Source of the DNA: Novosphingobium sp.
GTDB lineage: Bacteria; Pseudomonadota; Alphaproteobacteria; Sphingomonadales; Sphingomonadaceae
Assembly: GCA_027490345.1 (NCBI GenBank)
Contig: JAIXYF010000250.1
Coordinates: 1-32,645 of the forward strand
DNA length: 32,645 bases
Direction of reading: 5' to 3'
Below the pieces are notes generated by a model. The model ran no database searches and was not told the origin of the DNA. It was given only the letters and a program-made list of their open reading frames with translations. Position numbers and translations under genes: made by a program. Numbering within the stretch: the first letter of the stretch is position 1; every line of letters begins with the position of its first letter. Shown here piece after piece: positions 234-22,118 of this stretch.

Positions 234-641
234 ATGCGGTTGATGATACTCCTGCTTCTGCTGCTACTCGCCGGGTGTGACGCTTGGCCTACCATCGTGG
301 CCAATCCGACCCGGACCAATGTGTCGGTGCAGTATTTGCATAAAGATTACGACCATTGGTCCAATCCAATCCTGGTGCCAGCGAATGGAGCAATGCCGCT
401 CGCTATGGCGCATTGGATACAAGACTTGAAGGGTGTTCGTCTAAGAGACGGAGCGCGATCCTACTCGCTGTCGGATAGTGATATTCGTCGTCTCGAAAAT
501 GCCTGCCCAAGCAGCGCAATGGCTCGGAACTACTCCTTAGCAGGTAATTGCTACCTTTTATATTTAGGACAGGGCCGAGTTCGGGCCACGGCAAAGGAGC
601 CTCACGGCATACGTTATGGGCAGGTTGAGAACGGCAGCTAG
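234..641 (+). CDS. small predicted lipoprotein of unknown function
   Basis: ORF MRLMILLLLLLLAGCDAW... with hydrophobic signal and lipobox LAGC; no recognised domain. Confidence 0.6.
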   Translation: MRLMILLLLLLLAGCDAWPTIVANPTRTNVSVQYLHKDYDHWSNPILVPANGAMPLAMAHWIQDLKGVRLRDGARSYSLSDSDIRRLENACPSSAMARNYSLAGNCYLLYLGQGRVRATAKEPHGIRYGQVENGS

Positions 642-725
642 GCCAATCGTTCTGGCTGCCAGCTGCAAGTCCGCTTCCCACCACTTCCAGCCATCACAGC
701 TCACCAAATCGCCACCTAAAACCCA

Positions 726-762
726 CCGTCGCCCCGTGCTTGACACGGGGCTTGGCTACCTT
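726..762 (+). repeat. left copy of inverted palindromic repeat flanking the GIY-YIG gene
   Basis: ccgtcgccccgtgcttgacacggggcttggctacctt; contains hairpin GCCCCGTG-CTTGA-CACGGGGC; 36/37 match to the reverse complement of 1112-1148. Confidence 0.9.
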
Positions 763-1082
763 TCGGCCTTACCGCTCGGCATTGCACCTGCCGGATACCA
801 CAGCTCCCACAGGTCAAGCCAATCGGGATTGTCCGCCTCAATCAGCGCGAATTTCCATTCACGGCGCCATTTTTTGACGCGCTTTTCCCGTGCGATGGCC
901 GGTTCGATTTCCTCGTGCCGTTCCGCATAAACCAGCATGGTCTTGTCGAAGTCCCGGACATGGATTGATCCATCACCCTCGCGGTGCTGCCACACGCGCC
1001 GGATCAGATCGGAGGTGACGCCGACATAGGTTCCGCCGCGATAGCGGTTTGCCATGATGTAGACCCAGCCGCCTTTTGCCAT
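756..1082 (-). CDS. GIY-YIG nuclease family protein (UPF0213/COG2827-like)
   Basis: WVYIMANRYRGGTYVGVTSDLIRRVWQHREG matches the GIY-YIG core; stop codon lies inside the left repeat. Confidence 0.9.
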   Translation of the reverse strand: MAKGGWVYIMANRYRGGTYVGVTSDLIRRVWQHREGDGSIHVRDFDKTMLVYAERHEEIEPAIAREKRVKKWRREWKFALIEADNPDWLDLWELWYPAGAMPSGKAER

Positions 1083-1148: not shown

Positions 1149-1223
1149 ACAGGGTGTTTGCAGAGATGACAGCTCCCCACCAATATCAGCCGCGCTACTA
1201 ACCGCCCGACTCCCCCGCGCCGC

Positions 1224-2945
1224 CTAAGCCGCTGACCTGTACCCCGCCCCCCGGATCAGCTTGCCGGGTCGCGCGCCGGTCGATTGATCGAACCTGCGGA
1301 TCACTTCGCCCGCCACCACCGTCGCCTCGTAGCCGCTCGCGCGCTGGTGGAGGCGGCGGCCGCCTGCGGGGAGATCGCGCACCACTTCGGGGAGGTGGAG
1401 CGAGAGGCCATCGAGGTCGATCACGTTAAGGTCGGCGCGTTCGCCCACGGCCAGCAGGCCGCGATCATGCAGGCCGACCGCGCGCGCGGCCTTGCGGCTG
1501 AGCATGTGGACGGCTTCGGCCAGATCGAGCTTCAGCGGCCCCTCCCCCTTCACGAACTGGGTGAGCAGGTAGGTCGAATAGCTCGCATCGCAGATCGCGC
1601 CATAATGCGCGCCGCCATCGCCGAGGCCGGGGACGCAATAAGGGTGCTTCAGCATCTCGTGCGCGCTGGCGAGCGAGGCGTTCTCGTAATTGCCGAGTGC
1701 GGCGAGGAACAGGCCGCGCCCTTCGGTTTCGAGCAGGCGGTCATAGGCCACTTCCTGCGGGGTGCAGCCACGCGCGGCGGCCTGGCCCTCCATGCTGAGG
1801 TGCGCAGGCGGCGCATAGTCCGGCGGATTGTCGAGCGGGAACAGCCAGCGCCAGTTGCGCGCGAGAGCGTTGAACGGATGGCCGGGGGCGAAGTCTTCGC
1901 TCAGCAGCGCCTCACGCAAGGCGGGATCGCGCATCGCAGCGACTTGTTCGGGGATCGGAAGGTGCGCGATCTTGCTCCAGCTGGGGCAGAGCACGAAGGG
2001 GTGCACCGTCAGCTCCAGCCCCGCGATCAGGCCGATGGGGCGCGGCATGACTTGCGCGTGGGCCGTGCCGCCCGCCGCGTTGGTCTTCTCCAGCATTTCC
2101 AGCACGCGGCGCCAGCGCGGCGCGGTATCGTTGCCCGATGCGAGCGTGAAGGTGGCGGGGCGGCCGCTGGCGGCGATCACCCGCTCGATCACGCGGTATT
2201 CCTTGTCCCACCCGACAAAGGCATCGAGCACGACCTGAAACGTGCCCGCGCCCACATCGCCCATGCCGCGCGTGATCGCCTCAAGTTCGGCAATATCAGC
2301 ATCGAAGGTGGGGATCGCGCCGCCATCGGCGGTCTTGTGGATCGACAGGCGCGAGGTGGCAAAGCCGATGGCCCCGGCGCGCATGGCTTCTGCCGTGAGG
2401 CGGCGCATCAGCGCGAGGTCATCCTCGCTCGCCGCCTCGCGCGCGGCGCCGCGCTGACCCATCGCATAGACGCGCAAGGGCGAGTGCGGGAGATAGGCGG
2501 CCACATCGATGTCGCGCTTCTGGGCGGCGACCTTGTCGAGGTATTCGGGGAAGGTTTCCCAGTCCCAGTCCAGGCCTTCGGTCATCACCACGCCGGGGAT
2601 GTCCTCCACGCCCTCCATCACGTTGATCAGCATATCGTGATCGGCCTTGCGGCACGGCGCGAAGCCGACGCCGCAATTGCCCATGACCGCTGCCGTCACG
2701 CCGTGGGCGGAGGACGGCGAGAGTTCCTCGGCCCAGATGCACTGGCCATCATAATGCGTGTGGACGTCAATGAAGCCGGGGGTGACGATCCGCCCCTTGG
2801 CGTTGATCTCATCCGCGCCGCGCCCGCTGAACGCGCCGATGGCGGCAATGCGCCCGGCGGTGATGGCCAGATCGCCGTCGATCAGATCGCCGCCGCTGCC
2901 ATCGGCGATGGTGCCGCCCCGGATAACCAGATCATAGTCCGCCAT
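1224..2945 (-). CDS. N-acyl-D-amino-acid deacylase-type amidohydrolase
   Basis: DLVIRGGTIADGSG...GRIVTPGFIDVHTHYDGQ metal-dependent amidohydrolase signature; C-terminal GERADLNVIDLD. Confidence 0.88.
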   Translation of the reverse strand: MADYDLVIRGGTIADGSGGDLIDGDLAITAGRIAAIGAFSGRGADEINAKGRIVTPGFIDVHTHYDGQCIWAEELSPSSAHGVTAAVMGNCGVGFAPCRKADHDMLINVMEGVEDIPGVVMTEGLDWDWETFPEYLDKVAAQKRDIDVAAYLPHSPLRVYAMGQRGAAREAASEDDLALMRRLTAEAMRAGAIGFATSRLSIHKTADGGAIPTFDADIAELEAITRGMGDVGAGTFQVVLDAFVGWDKEYRVIERVIAASGRPATFTLASGNDTAPRWRRVLEMLEKTNAAGGTAHAQVMPRPIGLIAGLELTVHPFVLCPSWSKIAHLPIPEQVAAMRDPALREALLSEDFAPGHPFNALARNWRWLFPLDNPPDYAPPAHLSMEGQAAARGCTPQEVAYDRLLETEGRGLFLAALGNYENASLASAHEMLKHPYCVPGLGDGGAHYGAICDASYSTYLLTQFVKGEGPLKLDLAEAVHMLSRKAARAVGLHDRGLLAVGERADLNVIDLDGLSLHLPEVVRDLPAGGRRLHQRASGYEATVVAGEVIRRFDQSTGARPGKLIRGAGYRSAA

Positions 2946-3500: not shown

Positions 3501-5111
3501 TCAGGGCAGCGAGACCAGCGTCTTCGTGTGCGCGGCGGGCGTGATCACCTTCACGTCATAAGCGCTGTTTTCCAGCACGGGATCGCTGGGGTTGCCGACA
3601 TAGAAGCACTTGGGGCCAAGGCTTTCGCGCGCCACGGTGACCTGGCTCGTGAGGCGGGCAAAGCTCTTCACTTGCGTGCCGCCCGCAGGCAGCGCGCCGG
3701 TGAAGGTCAGCGTATCGACCACGCGGCCGCGCAAGCGCAGTTCGGCGGTGATCGAGCCGTTGAAGGCTGTGGTTCCTTCGTTGCGCACGCCCCAGCGGAT
3801 CGCGGGCAGATTGGCGATGCCCTGCGCCACCACGCGCGTGCCGCCCGGGCCAAACGCAGGCTGCGGCACCGTGGCGCACCAGCTTTCGCTGGCAAGGCCG
3901 GTCATCGTGGCGGAAACGCCAGTGTTCTCCACAGTGGTGGTGCCGCCGCCCGCATTGAACAGAATGTTGCCCGGATCGAACGCCTTGATCGTGATCGTGG
4001 TGGCAGGCGGGGTTGTGGTTCCACCTCCCGTTGTCCCGCCTGTCGCGGCGAGCGCGGTGATGGCATAGCGGCCCTCACCCATGCTGCGCAGGCCATCGGC
4101 GGCGCCGCCCGCCCATGCGGTATCCACGAAATTGCGTGCCGCATTGATGCCGCCGCCGCTATTACGCGGGAAGCGCAGCATCGGCACCGATCCGCGCACC
4201 TTGCCGCTCGCGGTCTGGCCCGCCACGGGATTGAACCAGGTGAGCATGAAGGTGGGGCGCGCCGAACCGAGCGTAAAGCTGTGCGCGCTCATGCCCGGGG
4301 CCGAACCGGGAAGATCCTCGCGGCGCAGCGCGTTCATCCGCGCAAGGCCGGTGCCGATCAACGCGCCCAGCAGGGGGATCTGCCCGTTGACGATGCGGAA
4401 GCTGCCTGCCCCATCGGTTTCGCTGCCCGCCGTCAGCGACGTGATGCGCGGTCGCGGCACGAGCGTGACCGGGATCGAGGCCACATCGAATTCGGTATCG
4501 GGGAAGCAGTGGGCAAACCGCTCCAGCCCGCCTTCCAGCGCTGCGCCGATGGCTTTGGGATCGCACGGCGTGAGCGCGAAGGCCGATGGCGGATACTGGC
4601 GGCGCGTGCGCATCGTGATGGTGGCACTGGTGGCGGCGGTGAGTGCCGGAATGGCGAAGCGCAGCACAGCCACGCCCGCACCATTGCCAGCGGTCTCGCC
4701 GCATTGGCTGCCCGCCAGACGGCGGCGCATGATCGTGCCCGAAATCGCTGCGCCGCCAGCGATGCGCAAGGTGGCGCTTCTGAGCAGAGCCAGATCGCGG
4801 CCGACAAGGACAAGACCCGTATCGCCAGTGAAGATCTCCATGCGCGCGGTGCCCGCACTCGCGCGGCGGAACAAGACCGGGCTCGCCTCTCCGGCAGGCA
4901 GCAGCAGATCGCAGCCGCTGGCGTTGTCCACCCCGTAAACTTCGCGGACCGCGGCCTCGCGCACTTCAGTAGCGGCCGCAATCGCGCCGCTGACGGGCGA
5001 CTGGATGGGCGCGAGCGTGGGCGATATCTGCGCCAGAGCCGGTGTTGCCGCCAGCACCAGCGCGAGGCCGGGTGCCAGCGAGCCAAGGGTGTGTATCGAT
5101 GTGCGTTTCAT
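3501..5111 (-). CDS. large secreted protein of unknown function
   Basis: Sec signal peptide MKRTSIHTLGSLAPGLALVLAATPALAQ; Gly/Thr-rich linker TGGTTGGGTTTPPATT followed by a probable beta-sandwich region; no recognised family. Confidence 0.75.
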   Translation of the reverse strand: MKRTSIHTLGSLAPGLALVLAATPALAQISPTLAPIQSPVSGAIAAATEVREAAVREVYGVDNASGCDLLLPAGEASPVLFRRASAGTARMEIFTGDTGLVLVGRDLALLRSATLRIAGGAAISGTIMRRRLAGSQCGETAGNGAGVAVLRFAIPALTAATSATITMRTRRQYPPSAFALTPCDPKAIGAALEGGLERFAHCFPDTEFDVASIPVTLVPRPRITSLTAGSETDGAGSFRIVNGQIPLLGALIGTGLARMNALRREDLPGSAPGMSAHSFTLGSARPTFMLTWFNPVAGQTASGKVRGSVPMLRFPRNSGGGINAARNFVDTAWAGGAADGLRSMGEGRYAITALAATGGTTGGGTTTPPATTITIKAFDPGNILFNAGGGTTTVENTGVSATMTGLASESWCATVPQPAFGPGGTRVVAQGIANLPAIRWGVRNEGTTAFNGSITAELRLRGRVVDTLTFTGALPAGGTQVKSFARLTSQVTVARESLGPKCFYVGNPSDPVLENSAYDVKVITPAAHTKTLVSLP

Positions 5112-19583: not shown

Positions 19584-19615
19584 GGGAGCAGTGCCGGTGG
19601 CGCTGCTCCCTTTTT
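19584..19615 (+). terminator. Rho-independent terminator after the TonB-dependent receptor gene
   Basis: GGGAGCAG tgccggtggcg CTGCTCCC followed by TTTTT. Confidence 0.88.
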
Positions 19616-19658
19616 GCTGTTTATCGTCTCTGTCCCATTGTCAGTTCGAAGGGTTCCC

Positions 19659-21221
19659 ATGTCCTCGCAAACCCATCCTGATCCCGTGATCGCGCGCGCC
19701 CGCGCGCAATCGCTTTCCGCCATGCTTGCGCGCGCGGCAGAAAGGCATGGGGATAAGACCGCGATCATCTGCGGAGACGTGACGTGGAGCTATGCGGACT
19801 TTCACCGCGAGATCGAGCGGCTGGCCGCAGGGATCAGGCAGCTGGGCGTAGAGCCGGGCGAGCGCATCGCGATCCTCGCGCGCAATAGCCATGCCTTCAT
19901 CGCGCTGCGCTTTGCCATCGCGCGGGCGGATGCGGTGCTGGTGCCGATCAACTTCATGCTCAATGCCGAAGACGTGCGCTATATCCTTGATCATTCTGGC
20001 GCGCGGGTGCTGTTTCTGGACGAAACGACGCTTGAGACCGGGCTTGCCGCGCGCAGCGATGCGGCGAGCCATATGTTCGGCATTCCCGGCGAACATGCGC
20101 CGCCCCCGGCAGGCGTACCCGCATGGACCGATCTGCTGAACGATGCCCCCCTCCCCCCGCAGGAGCGCGGCGGCGAGGACTTGCTGCAGATCGTCTATAC
20201 CAGCGGCACGGAATCGCGGCCCAAGGGCGCGATGCTTTCGCACAACGCGGTGCTGTGGGAATACCAGAGCTGCATCATCGATTGCGAATGGACGGCGAGT
20301 ACGGTGGCGCTCCATGCCATGCCGCTGTTCCACTGTGCGCAGCTCGATTGCATGATCGGCCCGGCGCTCCATGTCGGCGCCACGAACATCATCACCGGAT
20401 CGCCTGCCGCAGACAATGTGTTGCACCTGCTGGCGCAGCATAAGGCAAACTCGTTCTTCGCGCCGCCCACGGTGTGGATCTCGCTGCTGCGCTCACCCCT
20501 CATGGACAGCTACGATCTCTCCGCGCTGGAAAAGGGCTATTACGGCGCCTCGATTATGCCGGTCGAAGTGCTGCGCGAAATGAACGCGCGCATTCCTAAG
20601 CTGAGGTTGTGGAACCTCTATGGCCAGACCGAGATTGCGCCGGTGGCCACGATCCTGTTTCCCGAAGAGCACGCGGCGCGCCTCGGCTCAGCCGGGCGGC
20701 CAACGCTGCATGTCGAAACGCGGATCGTGGATGATGCGATGAACCCGGTGGCGCCCGGCGAAGTGGGCGAGATCGTCCACCGCTCGCCGCAATTGCTCAG
20801 CGGATACTGGAACGATCCCGTGCGCACGGCAGAGGCCTTTGCGGGCGGCTGGTTCCACAGCGGCGATCTGGGCGTTGCGGACGAAGCCGGGTACATCACC
20901 GTGGTCGACCGCAAGAAGGACATGATCAAAACGGGCGGCGAAAACGTCGCCTCACGCGAGGTGGAGGAAGTGCTTTATCAGCACGTCGCCATCAGCGAAG
21001 TGGCGGTGATCGGCATGCCGGACCCGAAGTGGATCGAGGCCGTGACTGCCGTGATCGTGCTGCGCGATGGGCATACGCTCGATGAAGCAGGCGTTCTGGC
21101 GCACTGCGCGGAGCATCTCTCCGCGTTCAAGGCGCCGAAGAAAGTCGTGTTTGCGCAGACCCTTCCTCGCAACGCGAGCGGCAAGATCCTCAAACGCGAA
21201 CTTAGGCTCTCGCTGCTTTAG
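19659..21221 (+). CDS. acyl-CoA synthetase (AMP-forming, FadD-like)
   Basis: P-loop IVYTSGTESRPKGAMLSH, NLYGQTE, GYWNDPVRTAEAFAGGWFHSGDLG, DRKKDMIKTGGENV. Confidence 0.93.
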   Translation: MSSQTHPDPVIARARAQSLSAMLARAAERHGDKTAIICGDVTWSYADFHREIERLAAGIRQLGVEPGERIAILARNSHAFIALRFAIARADAVLVPINFMLNAEDVRYILDHSGARVLFLDETTLETGLAARSDAASHMFGIPGEHAPPPAGVPAWTDLLNDAPLPPQERGGEDLLQIVYTSGTESRPKGAMLSHNAVLWEYQSCIIDCEWTASTVALHAMPLFHCAQLDCMIGPALHVGATNIITGSPAADNVLHLLAQHKANSFFAPPTVWISLLRSPLMDSYDLSALEKGYYGASIMPVEVLREMNARIPKLRLWNLYGQTEIAPVATILFPEEHAARLGSAGRPTLHVETRIVDDAMNPVAPGEVGEIVHRSPQLLSGYWNDPVRTAEAFAGGWFHSGDLGVADEAGYITVVDRKKDMIKTGGENVASREVEEVLYQHVAISEVAVIGMPDPKWIEAVTAVIVLRDGHTLDEAGVLAHCAEHLSAFKAPKKVVFAQTLPRNASGKILKRELRLSLL

Positions 21222-21243: not shown

Positions 21244-21276
21244 CCGTTGGCCCGGACTGGGCTCCGGGCCTTGGCT
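21244..21276 (+). repeat. degenerate left copy of the palindromic repeat (also terminator-like hairpin)
   Basis: ccgttggcccggactgggctccgggccttggct; hairpin GGCCCGGA-ctgggc-TCCGGGCC; same flanks (CGT..G..CTTGGCT) as 726-757. Confidence 0.65.
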
Positions 21277-21304
21277 GTTGTTTTATCACGTCGCGCGAGC
21301 ACAC

Positions 21305-21336
21305 CAGCCAAGGCCCGTATCAAGCACAGGCCGACG
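21305..21336 (-). repeat. degenerate right copy of the palindromic repeat
   Basis: reverse complement CGTCGGCCTGTGCTTGATACGGGCCTTGGCT matches CGTCGCCCCGTGCTTGACACGGGGCTTGGCT (727-757) at 27/31. Confidence 0.8.
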
Positions 21337-21377: not shown

Positions 21378-22118
21378 CTACGCCGCGAGATATTCCCCGC
21401 CTGTGACGAACACCACCTGCCCCTGAATCATCGCGGCCGAAGGGCTGGCGAGGTATTCGATCAGGCTGCAATAGTCGTCGTGCGTCACGTTGCGCCCGCT
21501 GGGGCTGGCGGCAGCGGCGGCCTGCAGGATTTCCTCGGTCTTCTCGCCATAAACCTGCCGCAGCGCTTCGGTATCGACCGCGCTGGGGGCGACGCAGTTG
21601 GCCCGCACGCCGAGCGGTGCCAGTTCGCGCGCCAGATAGCGGATCAGGCTTTCCGCGAGCGATTTGCCCGCGCCGACCGCCGCGTAGTTCGGGATCACGA
21701 CGCGGCTGCCCCGGCTGGAGAGGAAGAACACCGTGCTGCCACGGCGGAACAGCGGCACGGCGGGCTGCACGAGATAGACGAGCGCGGTGCCATTGAGGTT
21801 GATCGCCTCGGTGAAGGCCGCCGGATCGATGGTCAGGAGCGGTTCGGGAAGCACTTTCACCGCGCAGTGGACAAGCTGGTCGAGCCGGTCGGTCTGCGCA
21901 GCGACAGCGGCCACAACGGCCTGCGCGCCTTCAGGCGTGCTCACATCGCCCTGGATCAGATGACAGCGTGCGCCGAGCGCCTCGATCTCCTGCTTGGCGC
22001 TATCTGCCGAGGCCTGATCCGCGCGGAAATTCAGGAACACATCGGTATCCTGCTTGGCAAAGCGCTTGGCGATGGCGAGGCCGATACCCTTGGTACCGCC
22101 AGTGACGAGAATGGCCAT
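21378..22118 (-). CDS. SDR family oxidoreductase
   Basis: AILVTGGTKGIGLAIAKRF cofactor motif, YLVQPAVPLF, SSRGSRVVIPNYAAVGAGKSLAE active-site region, C-terminal GQVVFVTGGEYL. Confidence 0.9.
   Translation of the reverse strand: MAILVTGGTKGIGLAIAKRFAKQDTDVFLNFRADQASADSAKQEIEALGARCHLIQGDVSTPEGAQAVVAAVAAQTDRLDQLVHCAVKVLPEPLLTIDPAAFTEAINLNGTALVYLVQPAVPLFRRGSTVFFLSSRGSRVVIPNYAAVGAGKSLAESLIRYLARELAPLGVRANCVAPSAVDTEALRQVYGEKTEEILQAAAAASPSGRNVTHDDYCSLIEYLASPSAAMIQGQVVFVTGGEYLAA

Follow-up and report, generated by a model that had tools for sequence, protein, structure and literature searches.

A palindromic repeat pair of Novosphingobium with and without a GIY-YIG nuclease gene: a candidate mobile unit of CGTC-tagged REPs

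The window analysed here is a stretch of 32,645 bp from Novosphingobium sp. (assembly GCA_027490345.1, contig JAIXYF010000250.1, positions 1 to 32,645); it is contig C261 of a genome of 3.37 Mb in 502 contigs that is 82% complete (G000). Near its left end, an open reading frame (ORF) at 756-1082(-) encodes a one-domain GIY-YIG protein (PF01541). The ORF is enclosed by a perfect pair of a palindromic repeat: the sequence CGTCGCCCCGTGCTTGACACGGGGCTTGGCT at 727-757 recurs without mismatch, inverted, at 1117-1147. About 20 kb further on, at 21244-21336, lies a second pair related to the same repeat, this time without a gene inside. As the first-pass annotation of the sequence had stated, both sites lie between convergent gene ends: the unit at 727-1147 sits between genes 234-641(+) and 1224-2945(-), the pair at 21244-21336 between an AMP-binding gene, 19614-21221(+), and a short-chain dehydrogenase/reductase (SDR) gene, 21378-22118(-). 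The repeats are referred to below as repetitive extragenic palindromes (REPs), and the features of the two sites are:

669-726, - strand: 3' extension common to other units, with GGTGGGAAGCGGAC at its outer end (from comparison of units)
727-755, + strand: REP 3' of the nuclease gene, identical to the other end
756-1082, - strand: GIY-YIG nuclease gene, 108 aa (PF01541, E 1.3e-12; catalytic residues invariant or nearly so in 17 relatives)
1083-1118, - strand: leader from REP to start codon (in most relatives roughly 38 bp up to where the 28-base REP hit ends)
1119-1147, - strand: REP 5' of the nuclease gene, identical to the other end
1148-1184, - strand: 5' extension common to other units (from comparison of units)
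21245-21274, + strand: left REP of the REPIN-like pair, with CGTT tag, GGCCCGGA stem and a loop one base longer (4 edits to the GGACTTGATCC REP subtype, shuffle minima 7-9)
21275-21307, no strand: spacer of 33 bp, a length class common to most dimers of the genome
21308-21336, - strand: right REP of the pair, CGTC tag outward (27/31 to 727-757 over 21306-21336)

The reverse complement of 21306-21336 matched the 727-757 repeat at 27 of 31 positions, the figure that had been given for 21305-21336. The next best unrelated place within the window reached 19/31 and the maximum of 200 first-order Markov shuffles was 22/31. A second, diverged copy in the opposite orientation had been claimed at 21244-21276 and was indeed found at 21245-21274. 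Compared with the 727-757 repeat without gaps it matched at 19/31 only, but it is 4 edits away from a REP subtype seen elsewhere in the genome (GGACTTGATCC / CGTCGGCCCGGACTTGATCCGGGCCTTGG), for which shuffles gave minima of 7-9 edits. The two copies stand head-to-head with their CGTC and CGTT tags outward and a spacer of 33 bp, and as single-stranded DNA the pair folds better than shuffles (z -2.85). Judged by its sequence, 21244-21336 is a true head-to-head heterodimer of two REP subtypes and a typical dimer of CGTC-tagged REPs that resembles a REPIN (REP doublet forming a hairpin). The pair is not a decayed, 'empty' nuclease unit as had been suggested; the genome contains at least 14 REPIN-type dimers of this kind, this pair included, whose spacers measure 19-50 bp.

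The repeat has an outward CGTC tag (at 727, at 1147(-) and at 21336(-); CGTT at 21245), an 8 bp stem (GCCCCGTG/CACGGGGC) and a CTTGA loop, with one extra loop base in the left copy at 21245. CGTC-tagged REPs were described by Di Nocera, De Gregorio and Rocco in 2013 (PMC3733652) by an 8-9 bp stem, a 4-5 nt loop, head-to-head dimers and spacers of about 20-100 bp; N. aromaticivorans was named among their hosts, no association with transposase genes was seen and the question of mobilisation was left open. The repeat studied here agrees with this description in tag, stem and loop size, head-to-head dimers, short spacers and high copy number. Because tag, stem, loop and dimer layout match, it is assigned by sequence to this published superfamily (PMC3733652). 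Its unpaired tail is TTGG and thus differs from the CCA-like tail that most, though not all, CGTC-tagged REPs have (PMC3733652); CCA and CCC tails are present in relatives. Among 160 flanking loci the tag of the 5' REP was CGTC in 140 and TGTC in 17. An Rfam search gave no match. A search of the whole genome revealed 29 copies at ≤3 mismatches, and the reversed-pattern control gave 0 matches; further copies of the repeat, on which the first-pass annotation had staked its proposal, do exist. Nearly all are arranged as head-to-head pairs. Apart from the pair at 21 kb, 13 dimers have spacers of 19-50 bp, mostly 32-33 bp; the spacer measures 163 bp in one unit on contig C43 and 363 bp in both nuclease units (in the window and on C310). 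Pairs with and without the nuclease gene, as had been proposed, are both present in the genome. The two nuclease-bearing units are 421 bp long. The C43 unit, 221 bp long, retains the two ends of the nuclease unit, with about 200 bp of the middle missing; from this structure it is the internally deleted intermediate that had been asked for. The inner ends of nuclease-free dimers are also similar to the ten bases that open the nuclease leader, with a mean of 6.8/10 against 3.3 at random, and 54% of these ends had ≥7/10 matches compared with 1.25% of random decamers.

Some observations on the repeats stand beside this survey. Exact REP matches look strand-biased along two contigs: the first 13 listed on contig C1 of G178 (61-660 kb) are all on the + strand and 7/7 on contig C1 of G117 are on the - strand, as if the repeats were oriented relative to replication. 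In two further genomes (G299 and G202, loci L050 and L056), unusual loops, e.g. CCCCGGCCCCCGAGCCGGGG, occur in some flanking REPs beside a standard CTTGA partner.

The catalytic residues of the nuclease (Y8, Y19, R29, E66 and N85) are nearly or fully invariant among 17 relatives. Its predicted structure (predicted local distance difference test score, pLDDT, 89.5) had its best fold matches in the UPF0213 protein BH0048 (E 0.0036) and in Slx1 (E 0.035), with weak E-values and high match probability. A sequence-profile search found two UPF0213 structures; an NCBIfam search gave no match. By sequence and fold, the closest solved relatives are UPF0213 proteins (BH0048, 1zg2; EF2693, 1ywl) and Slx1. 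Slx1 is a branched-DNA nuclease that works with Slx4; we know of no function for the UPF0213 structures. The dN/dS ratio between the two nuclease copies of the genome is 0.08, which is also the median among Novosphingobium-type copies, and the nuclease is therefore under strong purifying selection. Its homologue in N. aromaticivorans DSM 12444 is SARO_RS19235. No REP pair accompanies the UvrC-type GIY-YIG locus of the window's genome.

The linkage of gene and repeat extends far beyond this genome. Among 80 named loci, which were found with a profile of the enzyme and are closest relatives, not independent cases, 72 have both REPs head-to-head at the ends of the nuclease gene and 8 have one REP; the usual distance of the REP before the start codon is 38 bp. 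Across the order Sphingomonadales, 57 of 68 loci have both REPs, 7 have one and 4 have none. In a class-wide sample of 88 loci across Alphaproteobacteria, mostly one per family, a first scan with a strict filter (CGTC, 8 bp stem) detected flanks in only 20/88 loci. An unbiased inverted-repeat scan revealed that TGTC tags and stems of greater length had escaped this filter. Wider criteria were chosen after this failure, with the data already seen, and a shifted control was added: both REPs were found at 40/88 loci and one REP at 19/88, compared with both at 2/173 in the control. The unbiased inverted-repeat score was ≥15 at 50/86 class-wide loci versus 0/85 in the null. The 5' REP differs by 2.3 edits from its own 3' REP and by 8.8 from those of other loci, and REP distance correlates with protein distance (Mantel r 0.78, 0/999 permutations), as is expected of parts inherited together.

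The number of REPs per genome was followed in 301 genomes of the order, 169 of which carry the nuclease. REPs were counted with two patterns, which cover two loop types only and gave zero control hits. At least 4 REPs were present in 125/169 nuclease-positive genomes compared with 14/132 genomes without the nuclease (odds ratio 24, p 4e-30), and the association was kept under within-genus permutation (0/5000). Since the REPs flanking the nuclease enter the counts, with two per copy only, a threshold of 10 is more informative; the nuclease is present in 94/101 genomes with ≥10 REPs, and the odds ratio linking REP-rich genomes to the nuclease is about 22-24. Weak or partial nuclease matches were found in 6 of the 14 nuclease-free genomes with ≥4 REPs. 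Furthermore, the loop type of the flanking REP is the dominant type of the genome in 22/22 skewed genomes, i.e. those with one clearly dominant REP loop type in which a flanking REP was found, and in 11/14 single-nuclease genomes taken without this filter. The REP-associated tyrosine transposase (RAYT) was also considered as mobiliser of the CGTC REPs and rejected: it occurs in 31/301 genomes of the order and has no association with CGTC REPs among them, and the RAYT profile NF047646 gave no hit in the genome of the window.

Copies of the nuclease unit within one genome share homology over approximately 400-490 bp only, reaching 30-60 bp outside the REPs, and their surroundings are unrelated. 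One genome (G285) has six copies, about 95% identical. At one site of Sphingobium plasmids, between fnrL and a response regulator gene, seven records contain the unit, two contain one lone REP with two tags (CGTCACCCCGGGTCAAGCCCGGGGTGACG; one of these two records has mismatches) and three others no REP. The single two-tagged REP fits what would be left by a deletion between short direct repeats within the two REP stems; it may also be the state before insertion. The frameshifted copy among the seven units (Sphingobium sp. TomTYG73 plasmid, L324), whose nuclease is intact at the same site in six related plasmids, is by its sequence a case of enzyme decay with both REPs kept. Likewise, plasmid pNL2 of N. 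aromaticivorans carries the unit, and the related ES2-1 plasmid has the same sugar kinase gene with no unit next to it. For the unit of the window itself an empty site by synteny was sought and rejected: in the nearest relative, G680, the amidohydrolase is 90% identical (aa) to that of the window and a different neighbour follows directly after the gene, so that synteny is broken there and the place is no clean vacant site.

Some Novosphingobium units have a GGTGGGAAGCGGAC-like motif, in the same orientation, close to each of their outer ends (at 669-682(-) and 1168-1181(-) in the window, at 4654 and 5119 on C310). It was considered as a target-site duplication and rejected, since copies at unrelated sites share it, many copies lack it, and at position 1722 of C490 (L293) it stands alone, without REPs; it is a recurrent motif rather than a variable duplication. 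The motif may reflect either a target preference or a terminal motif. Outside the REPs of Novosphingobium-type units (L083-L114), the 5' flank is A/C-rich, e.g. CAAACACCCTGTC, and the 3' flank G/T-rich, GTGGGTTTTGGTGG, as if the inverted ends weakly extended beyond the REPs.

Taken together, the pair at 21244-21336 is probably REPIN-like and non-autonomous, derived from a small mobile unit that is present in full at 727-1147. The full unit consists of two head-to-head CGTC-tagged REPs around one GIY-YIG nuclease gene. We propose that the nuclease binds and cuts at the unit ends, where it would recognise the tag and stem-loop of REPs folded into hairpins or cruciforms, after which strand transfer or replication-dependent repair would copy the inter-REP segment to a new intergenic site. 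If the nuclease acts in trans on REPs, short gene-free pairs would spread too, and the enzyme, which is unrelated to RAYT, would fill the role thought to belong to RAYT for GTAG REPs. Of the autonomous element and derivative akin to a miniature inverted-repeat transposable element (MITE) that had been suggested by the first-pass annotation, the shared architecture and the deleted C43 intermediate speak for such a relationship; mobilisation by the nuclease is correlative, and as a correlation it is well supported. Across several hundred alphaproteobacterial genomes, the comparisons suggest that the enzyme encoded between two repeat copies is the missing partner of CGTC REPs. Whether the units form a distinct class of bacterial mobile element is an evenly balanced question; such an element of about 370-480 bp would have CGTC-tagged hairpin ends and, as its only enzyme, a one-domain GIY-YIG nuclease with branched or hairpin DNA as its substrate, and would disperse itself together with the many alphaproteobacterial CGTC REPs and REPINs in a way that resembles neither HuH nor DDE nor known homing systems. 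Several points weigh against the reading of the pair as a derivative of a mobile unit. The evidence is wholly comparative, and cleavage, excision and transposition are predicted from it; to our knowledge, a single GIY-YIG domain has no strand-transfer activity. Neither a target-site duplication nor an exact element end was established among the compared unit copies. Even with the widened filter 29/88 class-wide loci have no REP at the nuclease gene, a full nuclease hit is missing in seven genomes with ≥10 REPs, the two patterns detect no REP in 27 nuclease-positive genomes, and the genomes are phylogenetically non-independent beyond the within-genus control.

The main rival, which we consider unlikely, is a homing-type parasite: the GIY-YIG gene would cut nuclease-free REPINs and copy itself in by repair, with the REP arms as homology, and the REPs would spread by other means. 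The location of the gene inside a REP pair and the homing endonucleases among GIY-YIG enzymes are in line with this, and the likeness of REPIN inner ends to the leader could also be explained if the gene had inserted into a REPIN. However, homing would not by itself explain the near-constant presence of the enzyme in REP-rich genomes. With 94/101 such genomes positive, partial matches in some of the exceptions, and nuclease-positive genomes with few REPs being common, the pattern is the reverse of what a parasite predicts. In addition, homology of unit copies continues beyond the REPs, and units occupy sites that are entirely free of REPs in related plasmids. A host function is more doubtful still: a domesticated DNA-repair enzyme would remove REP hairpins or cruciforms, and the REPs on either side of its gene would act as the leader and terminator hairpins of a regulatory or protective cassette. 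Strong purifying selection, the Slx1-like fold and the constant 38 bp leader distance would agree with this, but multiple copies, unrelated sites and patchy occurrence between close relatives are the behaviour of a mobile unit. That the hairpin at 21244-21276 is a plain transcription terminator resembling the repeat by chance, as its fold and its position between convergent genes might suggest, is very improbable and as an origin is refuted by the repeat survey: its partner is 27/31 identical to a dispersed repeat with 29 close copies, Rfam gave no match, and the hairpin is absent from the corresponding intergenic region of the relative G691 (after an AMP-binding gene 79% identical and before a convergent SDR gene only 31% identical, perhaps not the orthologue), although an additional terminator role is possible.

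If the small mobile unit is the right reading, many genes annotated as 'GIY-YIG nuclease' or 'excinuclease ABC subunit C' would be re-labelled as probable mobile-element enzymes. The conserved enzyme-REP unit offers a direct, testable answer to how CGTC REPs are mobilised, and, being compact, lends itself to studies of how hairpins might be handled and DNA moved by a GIY-YIG nuclease. The link of the nuclease with CGTC REPs is the new point of this analysis; a literature search for GIY-YIG in combination with REP, REPtron, palindromes or MITEs turned up no earlier report, with incomplete coverage, and priority is not asserted.

Compared with known systems, the repeats are like published CGTC-tagged REPs (PMC3733652) in their outward CGTC tag, 8 bp stem, 5 nt loop, mostly head-to-head dimers and short spacers, and in their intergenic position between convergent genes of Alphaproteobacteria; they differ by the GIY-YIG gene inside head-to-head pairs, which is unmentioned there, and by the tail TTGG instead of CCA. 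As in the REPIN/RAYT (TnpA-REP) system of GTAG REPs (PMC3116915, PMC8266576), two inverted REPs would form the mobile unit, the enzyme gene is flanked by the same REPs and REP number is tied to the presence of the enzyme, here as a correlation with GIY-YIG. Unlike RAYT, a HuH tyrosine transposase linked to a GTAG tag, the enzyme here is of GIY-YIG type and the tag is CGTC. With GIY-YIG homing endonucleases the unit shares a small nuclease with intact catalytic residues and a link to mobility, but it lies outside any intron or intein, is flanked by dispersed REPs and is multicopy at unrelated sites; no cognate site is known, and unit-free plasmid sites hold no REP or a single two-tagged REP. 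MITEs and autonomous insertion sequences likewise have inverted ends and internally deleted derivatives that outnumber full copies. In contrast to these, the unit has no DDE or HuH transposase and no established target duplication, and each of its ends is itself a palindrome.
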